From an uncultured Clostridia bacterium (GTDB taxonomy: Bacteria > Bacillota > Clostridia > Christensenellales > Borkfalkiaceae), in assembly GCA_947632505.1 (NCBI GenBank), contig CANRPN010000003.1:1-49021 (forward strand): a stretch of DNA of 49,021 nt. The letters run 5' to 3'. The translations under genes were made by a program, and so were the position numbers. Under the pieces are notes generated by a model. It did not search any database. It was not told the origin of the DNA and worked only from the letters and a program-made list of their open reading frames with translations. This document shows, one piece after another, positions 24,785 to 33,125 of this stretch (position 1 is its first letter; every line of letters begins with the position of its first letter).

Positions 24785-25696
24785 TTATTCGGATTCAAAA
24801 AGGCGGCTTTGAATAATAACGTTTAGGGCCTGTATCGCCCGATCATACGGAACATCCTCATACAACATCTTTGCAGTGACGTCCTCATAGTCCCTTTGAT
24901 AGATTTTCGACTCGATGATTTCCTGCAAAATCTTGTTGACGTCCATGCCGTCCTGCGCCGAAAGACACTTCTGCCGTTTCTTCCTGTCCTCACGGACTTC
25001 GCACACCAGCGCCCTCAATGTATCGTCGATTTCGACATGATCCAATAGCCGTAAAATATCATAGATATGTCTTGAATTCCGGGAGATCTCATCTGACAAT
25101 TTATAGTCGCACAGGGCGAAAACCTTATCAACCAACGTTCTCGTCAACGACTGTACAACGATCTCAAACGGGTGCAAGTCCTCGTACCGGTCTGCCGCCT
25201 CACCGTCTATGGAATGCAGATGATCATACAGGATCGAAGTCGCTGTCTTCATCTCATTCGGATACACTCGCCCCATAAAGACAGTTTCGGCATTGATGAC
25301 GGGCTTGATCCCCTCGGAATAATATTTCTTGGGATACTCGATCTCGTAGTTGTTATAATCCATGCCGTATAGGATTTTATCAAAGTTGGTTATGCGCAAA
25401 CCCAATTCATCGCAAGCTTCCCGAACTGCGAGCATCACCTTCTTTTTTGCCGACTTCGGAAATGTATCTCCGCATATCGTGAGATCGATATCCTCGGAGA
25501 ATCTACGGATCACCTTGTGGCATTTCGAGAGCGAAGTACCACCTTTGAACAATAAATTTGGCAGCCGCTTCGTCAATTCTCTTAGAAACAATGATACATA
25601 GTAGTCCTTCTCGATCAGCGCCTCATTGATCTTGAGCTTATCTGCCGTAATCAAAATAGAACGTTCGAACAATTCTTTGTCGTCACTTAATTTCAT
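24785..25696 (-). CDS. AbiEii/MenT-type nucleotidyltransferase toxin
   Basis: 303 aa. The nucleotidyltransferase signature is plain: 'LLFKGGTSLSK' at 49-57 (the GS/GT motif) and 'RFSEDIDL' at 65-72, giving the paired aspartates 69 and 71. Downstream are a basic 'KTATSILYDHLHSI' helix and a helical C-terminal domain. AbiEii toxins transfer NTPs to tRNA or other RNA and cause growth arrest on phage infection; the partner AbiEi acts by repressing the operon. Its start overlaps the antitoxin gene by 14 nt, so it is translationally coupled. All motif residues are kept, so it should be active. Confidence 0.88.
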   Translation of the reverse strand: MKLSDDKELFERSILITADKLKINEALIEKDYYVSLFLRELTKRLPNLLFKGGTSLSKCHKVIRRFSEDIDLTICGDTFPKSAKKKVMLAVREACDELGLRITNFDKILYGMDYNNYEIEYPKKYYSEGIKPVINAETVFMGRVYPNEMKTATSILYDHLHSIDGEAADRYEDLHPFEIVVQSLTRTLVDKVFALCDYKLSDEISRNSRHIYDILRLLDHVEIDDTLRALVCEVREDRKKRQKCLSAQDGMDVNKILQEIIESKIYQRDYEDVTAKMLYEDVPYDRAIQALNVIIQSRLFESE

Positions 25697-26303
25697 AGAT
25701 TACTCCACATATTGTCATTTTACTTAAAGTCTTTGACGGAAACGCATCGGCGATGCCCATAACCTGCTCTCTCGTGATATTTTTTGCGCGTATGAATTGC
25801 ACGATTTTTTCCCGAACTGTTTCAGTGTATTCTTTTAGTTCCATCCAACGAAAGAGTTCAAGCAAGGTATAAGCGTCCGCATTATCTTTCGTAATCGGTA
25901 CAAGCGATCTTCGTAAAACAACTTTCCGTCCCCGCATTTTAATACAACGGATATCGCTCTTCTCATTGTTCGTGATGATCTCAAGTGTATTGGGCACTTG
26001 CGTACTTAAAGCGAAATTAAGGTCGATAACCGTTTTCCCATAAATGCCGAAAACCTCTTTCCCTCTTTGAAGATACTTTTTGGCAACAACAGCATTGAGA
26101 GAAGGCACAGAAACACCAAAAATTGTTTGTGCGGGCATGTAATAAATGCCGCGCCCATAGCGCACAAGTTCCTTCCTCTGCTCCGCTTCCGAAATCATCT
26201 GATAAATTCGTTGACGCGAATAATCCTTCATGATCTCCATGATTTCTGCAAGGAGAATCGGGTCATCTTGAGTATATTTTGTTTTTAGCCTTTCAATCAG
26301 CAT
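25683..26303 (-). CDS. AbiEi-like antitoxin/repressor (DUF6088 type)
   Basis: 206 aa from ATG 26303, with GGAAGG close upstream; a TTG at 26324 is less likely. The N-terminal winged helix (residues about 15-55) contains 'YSRQRIYQMISEAEQRKELV' followed by 'RYGRGIYYMP', a typical AbiEi DNA-binding region. The remainder is an alpha/beta domain (VFGIYGKTVIDLNFALS) as in DUF6088 proteins. It precedes the nucleotidyltransferase gene with a 14-nt overlap, the standard AbiE order. It probably represses the consensus promoter at 26362-26390. Confidence 0.85.
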   Translation of the reverse strand: MLIERLKTKYTQDDPILLAEIMEIMKDYSRQRIYQMISEAEQRKELVRYGRGIYYMPAQTIFGVSVPSLNAVVAKKYLQRGKEVFGIYGKTVIDLNFALSTQVPNTLEIITNNEKSDIRCIKMRGRKVVLRRSLVPITKDNADAYTLLELFRWMELKEYTETVREKIVQFIRAKNITREQVMGIADAFPSKTLSKMTICGVIYEIK

Positions 26304-26361
26304 ACTCACCTTCCGATTAGACAAAAATTTAGAAAAAACCTTATTGATTGTCTACCCTATT

Positions 26362-26487: not shown

Positions 26488-26516
26488 TTGATATTTCTCC
26501 GTAAACGTGCTAAAAT
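26488..26516 (+). promoter_or_regulatory. Promoter of the structured leader RNA
   Basis: TTGATA (26488-26493), 17-bp spacer, TAAAAT (26511-26516). The predicted transcription start (about 26522-26524) coincides with the first bases of the long closing stem at 26521, so the RNA would begin with its own P1 helix. Confidence 0.7.
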
Positions 26517-26520
26517 ACTA

Positions 26521-26714
26521 TTGCGACGTCATAAAGAATCACCTCATTACTTCTCCCCTCATGGGGGAGTGCTTTATGTGTGTTATGGAAAATCCGTTAC
26601 CCGCCGGTAGTATCACCTGTTCCGAACGGATTTCCACAAGAATGAGGTTTATGGCGTCGCAACCATGGAACGGTGTTCTATAGGGTGCCGTTCCCTCGGG
26701 AGCGGCACTTCTTT
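26521..26714 (+). ncRNA. Structured leader RNA, riboswitch-like, upstream of a SLOG gene
   Basis: Seen by base pairing: P1 closes the element with 26521-26528/26655-26662 (8 bp), 26529-26535/26648-26654 (7 bp, one G-U) and 26542-26548/26641-26647 (7 bp), interrupted by a 6-nt bulge. Inside are P2 (26553-26558/26564-26569) and P3 (26592-26598/26625-26631 plus 26587-26590/26632-26635). After P1, two hairpins compete for 26688-26694: P4a (26667-26673/26688-26694) and P4b (26685-26690/26703-26708, extended to a CUCG loop). P4b would bury the GGGAG before the start codon at 26715 and is followed by UUCUUU. A ligand- or protein-responsive switch, or a processed small RNA, is inference. It does not match a class I recognise. 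Confidence 0.65.
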
Positions 26715-27191
26715 ATGTCAGGAACAGAAAAAGTCTGCTCATGCTTTGGTCATTTTACCGTTGAAATAACAGATGAATTGAAGGCAAGCACGAGCAAAGA
26801 AATTGACAAGGCGATCGATCGCGGGATTCGCATTTTTCTCTTCGGCGGCCGAAGCGATTTTGACGACCTTGTGTATGATATTGTTTCGGAAATCAAATCA
26901 CAAAACTCACAACTGAATTTGAAAAGAATATTTTGCTTTCCGCTCGATAAGCAACTGCGCAAACCACCGAATTGGTTCCAACGGAAAGCATATGAAGGCT
27001 ATGAATGCCCGGCAAAAGATTTTGACTGGTGGTACACCTCTATCTATTATCGCAACTGTGCAATGATAGACCAAAGCGATTTTGTCCTATTCTACGCTGA
27101 AGAACGTGAAAATAGCGGCGCATACAAAGCATACAAATATGCCGTGAAAGTCCATAAGGATCTTGTAAATTTCGCTTTAAATAAACCGTAA
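26715..27191 (+). CDS. SLOG-like nucleotide-binding protein
   Basis: 158 aa from ATG 26715; a GTG at 26673 would extend it through the leader hairpins and is less likely. 'VCSCFGHFTVEITDELKAS' at the N-terminus and 'IFLFGGRSDFDDLVYDIVSE' near 40-60 are typical of the YpsA/DUF1273-like branch of the SLOG Rossmann superfamily, proteins that bind or process nucleotides or act as sensors in conflict systems. 'DWWYTSIYYRNCAMIDQSDF' and 'YAEERENSGAYKAYKYA' complete the fold. There is no obvious effector domain. Expression is probably controlled by the structured leader directly upstream. The ribosome-binding site is the GGGAG at 26698-26702, 12 nt from the start. Confidence 0.75.
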   Translation: MSGTEKVCSCFGHFTVEITDELKASTSKEIDKAIDRGIRIFLFGGRSDFDDLVYDIVSEIKSQNSQLNLKRIFCFPLDKQLRKPPNWFQRKAYEGYECPAKDFDWWYTSIYYRNCAMIDQSDFVLFYAEERENSGAYKAYKYAVKVHKDLVNFALNKP

Positions 27192-29160: not shown

Positions 29161-30297
29161 ATGATAGTTTATCCTAAAACACCCAAATTGCAAAATGCGA
29201 TGGATCTGATTGGCCATTGGGGCGGTTCCCCCATCCCCATTTTCTATGTGCATTCCATGCATGCGTTAAACCAGTTGGTCGGATATGTAAAACATATAAA
29301 TTCAGGCAATGGAACGGTTCTTTACAGAGGGCAATGTGAACTGTATGATAAGATGGCTCCGAATATTTTGCATCAAAAAAAAGCCGTTCTGCAAAAACAA
29401 AATACGGAGCTTCTCGATGAAGCAATTACACAAATACAGACTGATCCACCCTTGATGAAATTTTTTAACTTCGATGAAGAGACAAGCGGGTGGGATCTCT
29501 ATCGACGTTTGATTATTGAAGCAACCTTTCAACACTATGGAGCCAAAACTTACTGCATCGATTTCGTAGACAATCACTGGACCGCGCTCTGGTTCGGGGT
29601 GAATAGGTGGAATGCACAAAATAATAGATATCATCTCCGTAGTGACATTGAACCAGAGAGCGGGAAGAATTTCATAGTCTTTGAGGACAACTATTCTCTT
29701 AAAACTCTGCCGCCGGAGCCGACATTGCAAACAACGCAATTAACGCAGCGGCTACTCGAAAAAATTCAAAAGAATGCTTCCAGCTCCATATCATTTAAGG
29801 AATTATATGATATCCATCTAAAAAACAAATTCAAAGGTGAGCATAAAAAATGGGAATCCGCATGCAAGAAGATTGAGGATTTCAACAAAACATATAACCA
29901 AAATGAATCGGCGGCGCACATGTACTTGTTTCTGTATGTGGCAGAAACGAACGCAAATTGTATTCACGGATTATATCTCGGAGAAAATACCTATACCATC
30001 GACCTAAGGAAAGCGTTGCCTTCCACTTTTTTACGCCCTTGTTCTCAGCATGGTTGGATTGTCCGCAGTAAAAAAGATGATTTTTCGTTCAATTCTAACG
30101 TAGCCTGCGTTATTTGAATTGATGTAAAACTCGTCAAGGAGCTGCTTGGAAGCGGTGCTTTGCTTAGTCAGGATAATTTCTTTCCGAGTTATGAGATTGA
30201 TAATGGCTATCATGTCCTTCTTGAACGTCAAATAAACTCTATCTTAAAATCAAATAATTCCAAAATTATCCCGGAAAATTTTATAAAAACATACTAA
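29161..30297 (+). pseudogene. FRG-domain protein interrupted by an in-frame TGA
   Basis: AGGAG precedes ATG 29161. The first 318 residues contain the FRG hallmarks: 'GTVLYRGQCELYDKMAPNIL' near 55, and 'QHYGAKTYCIDFVDNHWTAL' near 123. At 30115-30117 a TGA stops the frame, but the same frame continues for 59 codons in clear coding sequence (IDVKLVKELLGSGALLSQDN, then FFPSYEIDNGYHVLLERQ) to a TAA at 30295-30297. FRG proteins usually end in just such an 'L-x-x-LGI-x-x-x-x-LFP' region. The domain is found in phage-defence and toxin contexts; its reaction is unproven. The 318-aa form might still fold, since the FRG core is complete. Confidence 0.78.
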
Positions 30298-30372: not shown

Positions 30373-33093
30373 TTACTTAACCGCTTTATCTTTTATCGCC
30401 CCCTCCCTCCTTTCTTTCATCGACTGCGCTCTTTGCTTAATTGCGAAGTTGGCATCGTGAATCAAAGCGTCTATTATACGATCTGCCAATTCTTTGTCTG
30501 GGAACTGTGCAGCAGTACACGCATTGAGAAGTGAATTCCGCACTAAGGGGGCGGGATCAGTTGTAAAGTCAATCATCTGCCTTTCTGCCATATCGTTGTG
30601 TCCCGCAGAAAGCACAAGAGTCAAACACTCCATGCCCTTAAGTCGGATCAAATAATCCTTATCTTCACAAAACTGCAGAACCACAGACAAGACCATCATT
30701 TCTCGAGCCACTTGAGCGTTCCCCCTTAAAAGCGAGAGAATACAGTCTGCCATGGACTTTCTGTCGGCATCACCTTTTCTCGGATACTCATAGAACTGTT
30801 CGAATAAGGTCTCCGGACTCGCCACCCCAGCCAATACTTTAAGGAATTTAAGATTTTGTTCAACGCTTTCCATTGTTTCCGATGTAAATAACATAAATAA
30901 TGTATCGTCATGGATTTTACATTTTTCTATTGCGTTTTGTAATTCTAAAGATATACCATATTTTCTATCCACAAATTTTGCGACAATACGACGCAAGGAA
31001 CATAGGCATTGATTTATCAAGATTAGTGAAGTAGCGTTTGCTAAAATTTCGCCGCAAATGGGGAAATATGTTGCCGTAACTTTTTTTGCGATTTCATCGG
31101 AAAAGTAGTCTTCAACGATATCGGCTATCATGGAAAACGAGTTCATCCTAAAACTTGTATAAGAACCCGCAGACTTATTCTTCTCATATTGAATATTCGC
31201 ACTTTTGAAGAGCGAATCGAGTACATCAATCCAGTTTTCCGTCCCCATATTGAGAGCATAGTAATGCTTCTGCATACCAACCAATCCATTATCCGGGTTC
31301 TCATATAACGGCTGAAAAATTTGGGGGCGATGTTTCATCAAATAGGCAATTAGCTGCGGTTCTCCGTTGCGCTCCATGATGAATTTCAGTTTCTCATTTA
31401 GCGCACGGCTTAATTCCATCAAATCTGAATCGGGTATTTTTTCAAAATCCAAATTCAGCAAAAAATGACAAATGGGTCCCCCCATATTGAATCGCCCTTC
31501 GGAAATGATAGGCATTACAGCCTTGAACAACTTATAATGATCCAATCGCTGTAGTAATGAAGTAATGCAATCGAAATAAGTCTCTGCATTATCCTGAGTG
31601 ACAGACGGGGCAAAGTTAATCAAATAATTCTCCGCAACGCCAAAACTTTTATCGCACAGATACAACCCCAATTTTGATAGAAAAACCTGTTTCGCTGAGT
31701 CTCTGTTTTCATATCCTACCCTATCGGTGATACAAAACATATGCTCAGAGTTTACAACCAACAAAGAATAGAGAGAGTCCCACTCTTCAAGGAGAATGTT
31801 TTTATATTCCTTGGTCTCGCCATTTAAGAGAAAGAGATATATTGATGCAGCTTTAAGATTGACATCGGATAATGACCGCCCATAAGAATATAAAATTTGC
31901 CCCAAAACACGACGGCTCATAGTCAAATGTGTAAAGGAACCATAAATAGCCGAGATGAAAAAATAATTCTCAAAATTGGTGATTGCTTCTCTAAAATTAT
32001 TCCCGTATTGGTTTCTTCCATGAGGGAGAGTATTTATACTGATATTTTCCTGAAGAAAACTATTGTATGCCCGTTCCAACGCCCTGTCTGCCACGGGAAA
32101 GCACACGAACGACGTCATCCTATCCAATTCTTCCTGATGCTTTCCATATGTCTTCCCACGGGTTTTTATGGTTTCCAAATTTCTACAATCAATAAGGATC
32201 TCATGGCAAATCCACTCGGGGAGTTTGCTTTTTCTTGCTAATTCTAACGCATCTTCTTCGGTCCGAAGTGCCGCAGAAATATCATCGTTCATGTACCATT
32301 TGAACGCGTCCCAGCGTTTAATCAACCATTCAACGTTATGGAAAATTTCTTTTTCTTTTTCAATGAAACTTGACAACCGCCCTACGTCGCGGATCCTCTC
32401 GCCCAAAATCAGCCATCTTAAAAGCTGTTCACCTAAATCGTGAAATTCTGATAATTCATCTCCCTGCGATCTCTTCAGATACTTGAGCCCTAATAAATCA
32501 TATATCGTTTCGTAACAACTTCTAAAAAACGCCAAATCACTCTTAGCGGGCATAAAGTTTGTGGATGGCGATATTTCGCCCAATGAGACAGGCGCTACCG
32601 CCTCATCCTGCGCCCAAGCCATTTCACCATGGTTGACTAGATAAAACTGAATTGTATTTTCAATGATATCATGAAGAATCCTCTCTTCAACCGCCTCAAG
32701 TGGGTCAAGACAGCCACAATATGTGCAGATATCATACTTTTCAATTTCTCTTCTTATCTTGGTAATATCGAGGCTCGGATTATCATCTTTGAAAAAGTAA
32801 ATCAGAACCGGTTTTTTGTACTTTTTGCAAATGCTGAACTCCGTCGCTGTACCCGGTCTTAGCTCACCCTTGAAAAGCATAACAATAAGATCAGATCTCG
32901 TGACCTGATATGTAAACAATTGGGAAGACGGAATCTCACAAGTATCGTCCTCAATAATGAAAGGTGAAATATACGGGCATTCACCCAGCTTGTCCTTGAT
33001 CTTCCGCCTAGTTTTCGCCCAATCAAACCCTTTTTCTTCTCTTTGCGCGGAACTAATAAATACTCTCAGTGTATTTTGAGGGGAATATGCCAT
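30373..33093 (-). CDS. DUF4062 protein with a long helical, HEAT-like body
   Basis: 906 aa from ATG 33093 (AGGAG six bases upstream; TTG at 33111 less likely). Residues about 8-110 form a DUF4062 domain: 'LRVFISSAQREEKGFD', 'SDLIVMLFKGELRPGTATEF' and 'KKPVLIYFF'. This is a TIR/SLOG-like Rossmann unit found at the N-terminus of many STAND and defence proteins. The rest (about 170-900) is almost wholly helical, with HEAT-type repeats near the C-terminus ('YLIRLKGMECLTLVLSAG', 'DPAPLVRNSLLNACTA'). No P-loop is visible, so it is not a STAND ATPase. It is likely a single-gene immune or stress sensor (inference). Own promoter at 33126-33154. Confidence 0.75.
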   Translation of the reverse strand: MAYSPQNTLRVFISSAQREEKGFDWAKTRRKIKDKLGECPYISPFIIEDDTCEIPSSQLFTYQVTRSDLIVMLFKGELRPGTATEFSICKKYKKPVLIYFFKDDNPSLDITKIRREIEKYDICTYCGCLDPLEAVEERILHDIIENTIQFYLVNHGEMAWAQDEAVAPVSLGEISPSTNFMPAKSDLAFFRSCYETIYDLLGLKYLKRSQGDELSEFHDLGEQLLRWLILGERIRDVGRLSSFIEKEKEIFHNVEWLIKRWDAFKWYMNDDISAALRTEEDALELARKSKLPEWICHEILIDCRNLETIKTRGKTYGKHQEELDRMTSFVCFPVADRALERAYNSFLQENISINTLPHGRNQYGNNFREAITNFENYFFISAIYGSFTHLTMSRRVLGQILYSYGRSLSDVNLKAASIYLFLLNGETKEYKNILLEEWDSLYSLLVVNSEHMFCITDRVGYENRDSAKQVFLSKLGLYLCDKSFGVAENYLINFAPSVTQDNAETYFDCITSLLQRLDHYKLFKAVMPIISEGRFNMGGPICHFLLNLDFEKIPDSDLMELSRALNEKLKFIMERNGEPQLIAYLMKHRPQIFQPLYENPDNGLVGMQKHYYALNMGTENWIDVLDSLFKSANIQYEKNKSAGSYTSFRMNSFSMIADIVEDYFSDEIAKKVTATYFPICGEILANATSLILINQCLCSLRRIVAKFVDRKYGISLELQNAIEKCKIHDDTLFMLFTSETMESVEQNLKFLKVLAGVASPETLFEQFYEYPRKGDADRKSMADCILSLLRGNAQVAREMMVLSVVLQFCEDKDYLIRLKGMECLTLVLSAGHNDMAERQMIDFTTDPAPLVRNSLLNACTAAQFPDKELADRIIDALIHDANFAIKQRAQSMKERREGAIKDKAVK

Positions 33094-33125
33094 TTTTTTC
33101 TCCTGTAACAATAATTCGACAAAAA

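Follow-up and report, generated by a model that had tools for sequence, protein, structure and literature searches.

The leader that precedes a SLOG-type gene in the analysed DNA of an uncultured Clostridia bacterium (the whole stretch of 49,021 nucleotides is referred to here as the window) is probably a cis-acting transcription attenuator and one copy of a class-wide RNA family, as judged by comparing its sequence with those of its relatives. We propose that transcription would begin at helix P1 and that four segments, A, B, C and D, would be synthesized in this order. When A captures B, the latter would be unavailable for the antiterminator hairpin P3 (B:C), and therefore C would pair with D to form the terminator-like hairpin P4 and RNA polymerase would stop at the subsequent U-tract, which represents the off state. 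When A is held elsewhere, either in its local hairpin or by a bound ligand, protein or RNA, B:C would block P4, which represents the on state. Before SLOG genes, formation of P4 would in addition bury the ribosome-binding site. The direction of the switch, its action in cis and the existence of a signal are what we infer beyond the parts described below and, as the trigger, we tend to favour either a small ligand or a protein reading the conserved foot of P1.

All parts of the leader lie on the forward strand. A sigma-70-type promoter (26488-26516) with the -35 element TTGATA (26488-26493) and the -10 element TAAAAT (26511-26516), spaced by 17 nt, had been proposed in the initial annotation and was recovered by the promoter scan, in which it matches at 10 of 12 positions and has a TG upstream; the same scan detected 6 promoter-like sites around the leader as compared to 2.9 expected. 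The -10 element ends 6 nt 5' of the first G of P1 (26523), and the transcript start is predicted at 26521-26524. The 22-bp discontinuous helix described earlier corresponds to P1 (26521-26534/26649-26662), identified by fold and pair counts, together with P2 (26541-26548/26641-26648), identified by fold. Both are separated by an A-rich one-sided bulge (26535-26540), and 97 of 146 copies examined for this feature share a 5' bulge of this kind. The two inner hairpins said to lie within this helix are also seen in the fold, namely P2a (approximately 26553-26569), which by eye is optional across the family, and P2b (26586-26636, with the strands 26586-26598 and 26625-26636), the apical region of which carries segment A (26608-26623, limits approximate; UAG...CACC-U-GUUCC), which was identified by energy tests as the complement of B. 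The 3' strand of P1 leads into a conserved linker, R-R-C followed by A at position 5 as counted from the partner of G26523 (26661-26665), and segment B (26667-26680, limits approximate, derived from energy and overlap tests), which is the partner of either A or C. This pairing of the P2b loop with the linker adds to what had been noted before. The hairpins P3 (26667-26694, -13.6 kcal/mol alone) and P4 (26685-26708, -22.5 kcal/mol alone) are each possible but mutually exclusive, as claimed initially, and the ribosome-binding bases GGGAG are indeed found within the 3' arm of P4, followed by TTCTTT. In the window, TTCTTTATG lies directly 3' of P4 and the U-tract is short. The SLOG-type protein encoded downstream (26715-27191, ATG at 26715-26717) is YpsA-like and comprises 158 aa.

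The free energy predicted for the 197-nt leader (26521-26717) was -86.3 kcal/mol (z -6.71) as compared to a mean of -55.4 kcal/mol for shuffled sequences, and no fold of equal stability was obtained from 200 dinucleotide shuffles. When the whole leader was folded, the minimum-energy structure contained P4 and a small local hairpin that includes B, but not P3; among the folds of growing transcripts, P3 appeared solely at length 26698. The A:B pairing is missing from all computed folds because pseudoknots are outside the model of the folding program. A scan of the window for tRNA and tmRNA detected none.

Similarity to the SLOG protein of the window led to 23 loci, and the RNA was found directly upstream of the SLOG gene in 15 of them, was missing in seven and was cut by the contig end in one (L021). 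The SLOG genes of L016 and L017, which lack the RNA, are preceded instead by TATGGTTGCA-type inverted repeats, perhaps a repressor site. Among the SLOG matches of the genus, the RNA adjoins all five that rank nearest, including that of the window, and the genomes of the five distant ones did not show a match to covariance model R1, which was built from 21 leaders. At E 0.01, R1 matched 21 of the 103 genus genomes and, in a sample of 396 genomes from the order, 59; at E 0.001, it matched 9 of 391 sampled from the class. A second model, R2, was built from 28 mostly shorter members, among them L104a, which was retained despite its misalignment in alignment A4 (a further alignment, A5, fell short of A4 and was discarded). 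At E 0.001, R2 matched 53 of 297 genomes of the order and 56 of 371 genomes of the class, 51 of the latter being outside the order of the window, whereas in the phylum sample only the window's own genome was matched (1/249), which doubles as a specificity control for R2. The homologue search suggested at the outset has found relatives in Clostridia, which often precede SLOG genes. In viral contigs, a 16-base pattern of B occurred in 37, none of which showed an R1 match at E 0.01, a 33-base pattern gave no matches, and the sole viral SLOG relative (L031) was without an R1 match.

Altogether, 149 distinct copies were counted, identical RNAs being entered once. The most matches within one genome were eight. 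The genome of the window contains three at E up to 1, the third being weak (E 0.022). The second copy (L173:3402-3533, reverse strand, equivalent to G000:C12:24901-25032) has no convincing gene 3' of it. Tandem copies occur at 13 loci, and the 17 pairs compared were 53-93% identical (median 0.72). Three consecutive leaders are found at L101:1484-2632, the third of which heads a full-length SLOG protein, while the frames after the first two comprise only about 83 aa, the first clearly corresponding to the start of a SLOG protein. Inner-region lengths vary freely among members, and the shorter ones (about 150 nt) lack P2a, as judged by eye from the folds.

The fold is conserved across the family. 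Among 18 aligned leaders, 94.7% of the cells of P1 and 93.4% of those of P4 were paired, pairs were changed on both sides at 6 of 12 positions in P1 and 7 of 11 in P4, and the covariation score of the whole structure was 0.373 as compared to 0.096-0.151 when slid. P2 (57.5% paired) and P2b (48.3%) were poorly aligned in this set. The helices P1 to P4 outlined initially fared differently in this respect: covariation is clear for P1 and P4, and P3 is supported by comparison of the energies of cognate and swapped partners, but not by its column counts, which were negative. The 144 of 149 RNAs with at least 9 of 12 P1 pairs, each in the register maximising pairing, revealed pair 3 of P1 as GC in 74, CG in 46, AU in 19 and UA in 5 copies, pair 4 as A-U in 137, a G opposite position 7 in 140, and the linker bases C3 and A5 in 138 and 132 copies, respectively. 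In the 17 copies examined from outside the order, 11 or 12 of the 12 P1 pairs were formed in the register maximising pairing, and the A-U pair 4, the G opposite position 7 and the linker C at position 3 were kept in all of them. The near-constancy of these bases within a helix that otherwise covaries suggests that the foot of P1 may serve for recognition or for a tertiary contact. No compact group of unpaired bases stood out as invariant.

The position of the promoter is conserved as well. Of 149 copies, 134 have a best sigma-70-type match with a spacer of 17 nt, and in 134 the end of its -10 element is separated from the first G of P1 by exactly 6 nt, whereas the commonest promoter distance in shuffled controls occurred seven times. 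All 17 out-of-order copies have a -10 element of the form TAnnnT, and in 15 of them the -35 element starts with TTG. T residues average 6.9 in the 9 nt that follow P4, as compared to 2.1 further downstream.

With regard to the pairings that would be exchanged, segment A of SLOG leaders mostly reads GGUAGNAAUACC plus a tail, and A and B change together, as seen in L106, which has GGTAGCAATACCACCCGC with GCGGGTGCGTATGCTAT. For the energy test, 103 RNAs were dereplicated to 74. The cognate A:B pairing had a mean energy of -19.0 kcal/mol as compared to -15.2 kcal/mol for swapped partners, and its z was below -2 relative to shuffled inner regions in 63 of 74 RNAs. The cognate pairing was matched by an average of 18.6% of all swaps (9.0% of swaps with RNAs of dissimilar B) and ranked within the best 5% of all swaps in 19 of 74 RNAs. 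P3 behaved similarly (cognate -16.2 kcal/mol versus swapped -11.7 kcal/mol; a mean of 19.0% of swapped partners as good as the cognate; 18 of 74 in the best 5%). In the columns of the MAFFT alignment A1, A:B showed double changes in 3 of 15 pairs, a covariation score of 0.132 versus 0.127 at slide -1, and 82.2% of cells paired versus at most 50.9% when slid. For the P3 columns in the given register, 490 of 500 shuffles had at least as many double changes, and at slide +1 four pairs had double changes; we think, by eye, that two clades are offset by one column in that alignment. Outside the order, z for A:B was -2.0 or lower in 8 of 17 copies tested, which is weaker than inside the order. Non-random pairing of both A:B and P3 is therefore supported by the energy tests, while the column counts lend weak support to A:B and none to P3 in the given register. 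In 114 of the 115 RNAs (of 144) that entered the overlap and energy means, A:B also uses at least half of the 5' strand of P3, which makes both pairings mutually exclusive. A count of mimicry, i.e., of local partner bases of A identical to the base in B (0.83), was not used as it is near-tautological, since both bases must pair with A.

Downstream of the RNA, 124 of 149 copies have a frame of at least 60 aa starting within 130 nt, some of which are spurious, and 110 of these frames were passed to Pfam and BLAST analyses; the 14 excluded ones were apparently spurious, truncated or cut and include the disrupted SLOG frame of L008 as well as two short frames from L101. Single-linkage BLAST clustering of the 110 proteins separated 47 SLOG-like proteins, a mixed cluster with 30 members, which are surface lipoproteins or, in some cases, begin with a zinc ribbon instead, 11 zinc-ribbon proteins and 22 others. 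In Pfam (E 0.01), YpsA was assigned to 23, LRR_5 of the BspA type to 21 and zinc ribbons to 14 of them. When the loci fetched with the SLOG query were left out, 33 of 107 frames were SLOG-like (L008 is kept among the 107, although it was fetched in that way). The start codon follows P4 by 3-13 nt in 41 of 48 SLOG frames and by 21-42 nt in 48 of 76 non-SLOG frames. Before SLOG genes, the ribosome-binding bases lie within P4, as seen by eye, and this position together with the short distance to the start implies that translation would be gated as well. The special tie of the leader to a ligand of the SLOG protein that had been suspected is not supported in that form, as the same RNA also precedes surface lipoproteins, zinc-ribbon proteins and others. 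The wider idea of an unrecorded, class-wide sensor RNA gating one regulon of genes for SLOG proteins (probably nucleotide-binding), surface lipoproteins and zinc-ribbon proteins through loop-linker exchange in response to a shared nucleotide-type signal, with gene-less tandem copies acting as sensors or sponges, is compatible with the sequences, and we consider it rather doubtful. The SLOG protein of the window itself matched Pfam YpsA with E 3.6e-4 and 21 bits, i.e., under the cut-off of 27.7, and single-linkage BLAST clustering groups it with proteins that exceed this cut-off, reach up to E 6.8e-28 and have the same RNA upstream. Its subfamily had an unrelated best match in PDB (E 0.11), and the protein itself was without a match in PADLOC.

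The decision between P3 and P4 might be made by a protein bound to the foot of P1, which would be a special case of the attenuator. The near-fixed pair 4, position 7 and linker C3 and A5 within a covarying helix, and the retention of the first three in all 17 out-of-order copies examined, would fit such a protein, but the same bases could also engage the A:B helix through tertiary interaction or belong to a ligand pocket, and we regard this explanation as possible, if somewhat improbable. It is unlikely that the RNA is mainly a free-standing small RNA that acts in trans, with its own promoter and terminator and with genes reached by leaky read-through. Promoter and U-tract at constant places, the 25 of 149 copies without a frame of at least 60 aa within 130 nt (some at contig ends) and tandem neighbours that still match the family at only 53-93% identity (17 pairs, 13 loci) would be expected of it; however, most copies do have a frame, if at times a spurious one, SLOG frames mostly start shortly after a P4 that holds their ribosome-binding bases, by eye, and an antiterminator that excludes a terminator makes little sense in trans.

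Classical attenuation, in which a ribosome on a short frame through A would free B, might be read from the window, where by eye a frame preceded by GGGGGAG starts at 26576, spans A and has its stop codon (26681-26683) bordering B. We consider it very unlikely: among the few copies inspected by eye, L004 has no matching start, P2a, which holds the ribosome-binding bases of this frame, is absent from short members, and the inner lengths vary freely. Least credible of all is a MITE-like mobile repeat carrying promoter and hairpins by chance; tandem copies, up to eight matches per genome and varied downstream genes are what such an element might produce, but the sequences have diverged while base pairs and spacing were kept, and the genome of the window has only three matches at E up to 1. 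This explanation is already largely refuted by the covariation.

The proposed attenuator resembles several known systems. In trp-type attenuators, segment 1 pairs with 2, 2:3 forms the antiterminator and 3:4 the terminator. The leader shares this four-segment logic, including antiterminator 2:3 and terminator 3:4, but its segment 1 belongs to the loop region of an extended closed domain, which would make A:B a pseudoknot, and inspection of a few copies by eye revealed no conserved leader peptide. Pseudoknotted transcriptional riboswitches such as those for preQ1, fluoride and ZTP set a loop-linker pseudoknot against an antiterminator before an intrinsic terminator. They likewise comprise one class before several gene families with tandem copies, whereas few invariant unpaired bases were noticed in the RNA described here, which has the most strongly fixed of the counted bases in P1 and the linker and differs in having a promoter at a constant distance. 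In type III toxin-antitoxin systems of the ToxI type, an RNA and a terminator lie between promoter and gene. The layout of promoter, RNA, terminator and gene is common to both; however, an array of short direct repeats is missing from the window leader and the downstream genes are diverse. For B. subtilis YpsA of the SLOG superfamily (PMC6459960, PMC7376506), the relation is to the downstream proteins, which include YpsA-family members; the protein of the window differs in scoring under the Pfam cut-off.

As a kind, the leader appears to be a transcription attenuator and, as a class, it appears to be unrecorded. The initial remark that no known class was recognised in it agrees with the outcome of cmscan: no match in the whole window reached an Rfam 15 gathering cut-off, and the best sub-threshold match in the leader was Ref64 with 22.6 of 44.3 bits. 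For 39 further loci (E up to 1 or 0.5), two tRNAs passed, neither of them on the RNA, and in L010 matches far below the cut-off overlap the RNA. Identity with a T-box was discarded, as there was no Rfam T-box match in the window or in the 39 further loci. The RNA is not described in the titles and opening lines of abstracts of the papers found, and a nameless entry for it may be present in candidate lists such as those of PMC8040213, PMC11109978 and PMC8632094. An RNA present in 56 of 371 genomes of the class, at up to eight matches per genome, and reaching no Rfam 15 cut-off in 40 sources would constitute a sizeable gap in the catalogue. One switch would tie the poorly understood SLOG proteins to cell-surface proteins, and what gut Clostridia sense via this RNA becomes a testable question. 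Due to the constant position of the promoter, transcripts are easy to seek in RNA-seq data.

Several neighbouring genes in the window were also noted. The product of 30373-33111 on the reverse strand (912 aa) had no match in Pfam (E 0.1) or PADLOC (E 0.01). An FRG-domain protein encoded on the forward strand (29161-30117) is similar to the PADLOC candidate defence family PDC-S15. On the other side of the leader, and oriented away from it, an AbiEi/AbiEii type IV toxin-antitoxin pair is encoded on the reverse strand (24785-26324), for which a sigma-70-type promoter-like sequence with 12 of 12 matches was detected at 26390-26362.
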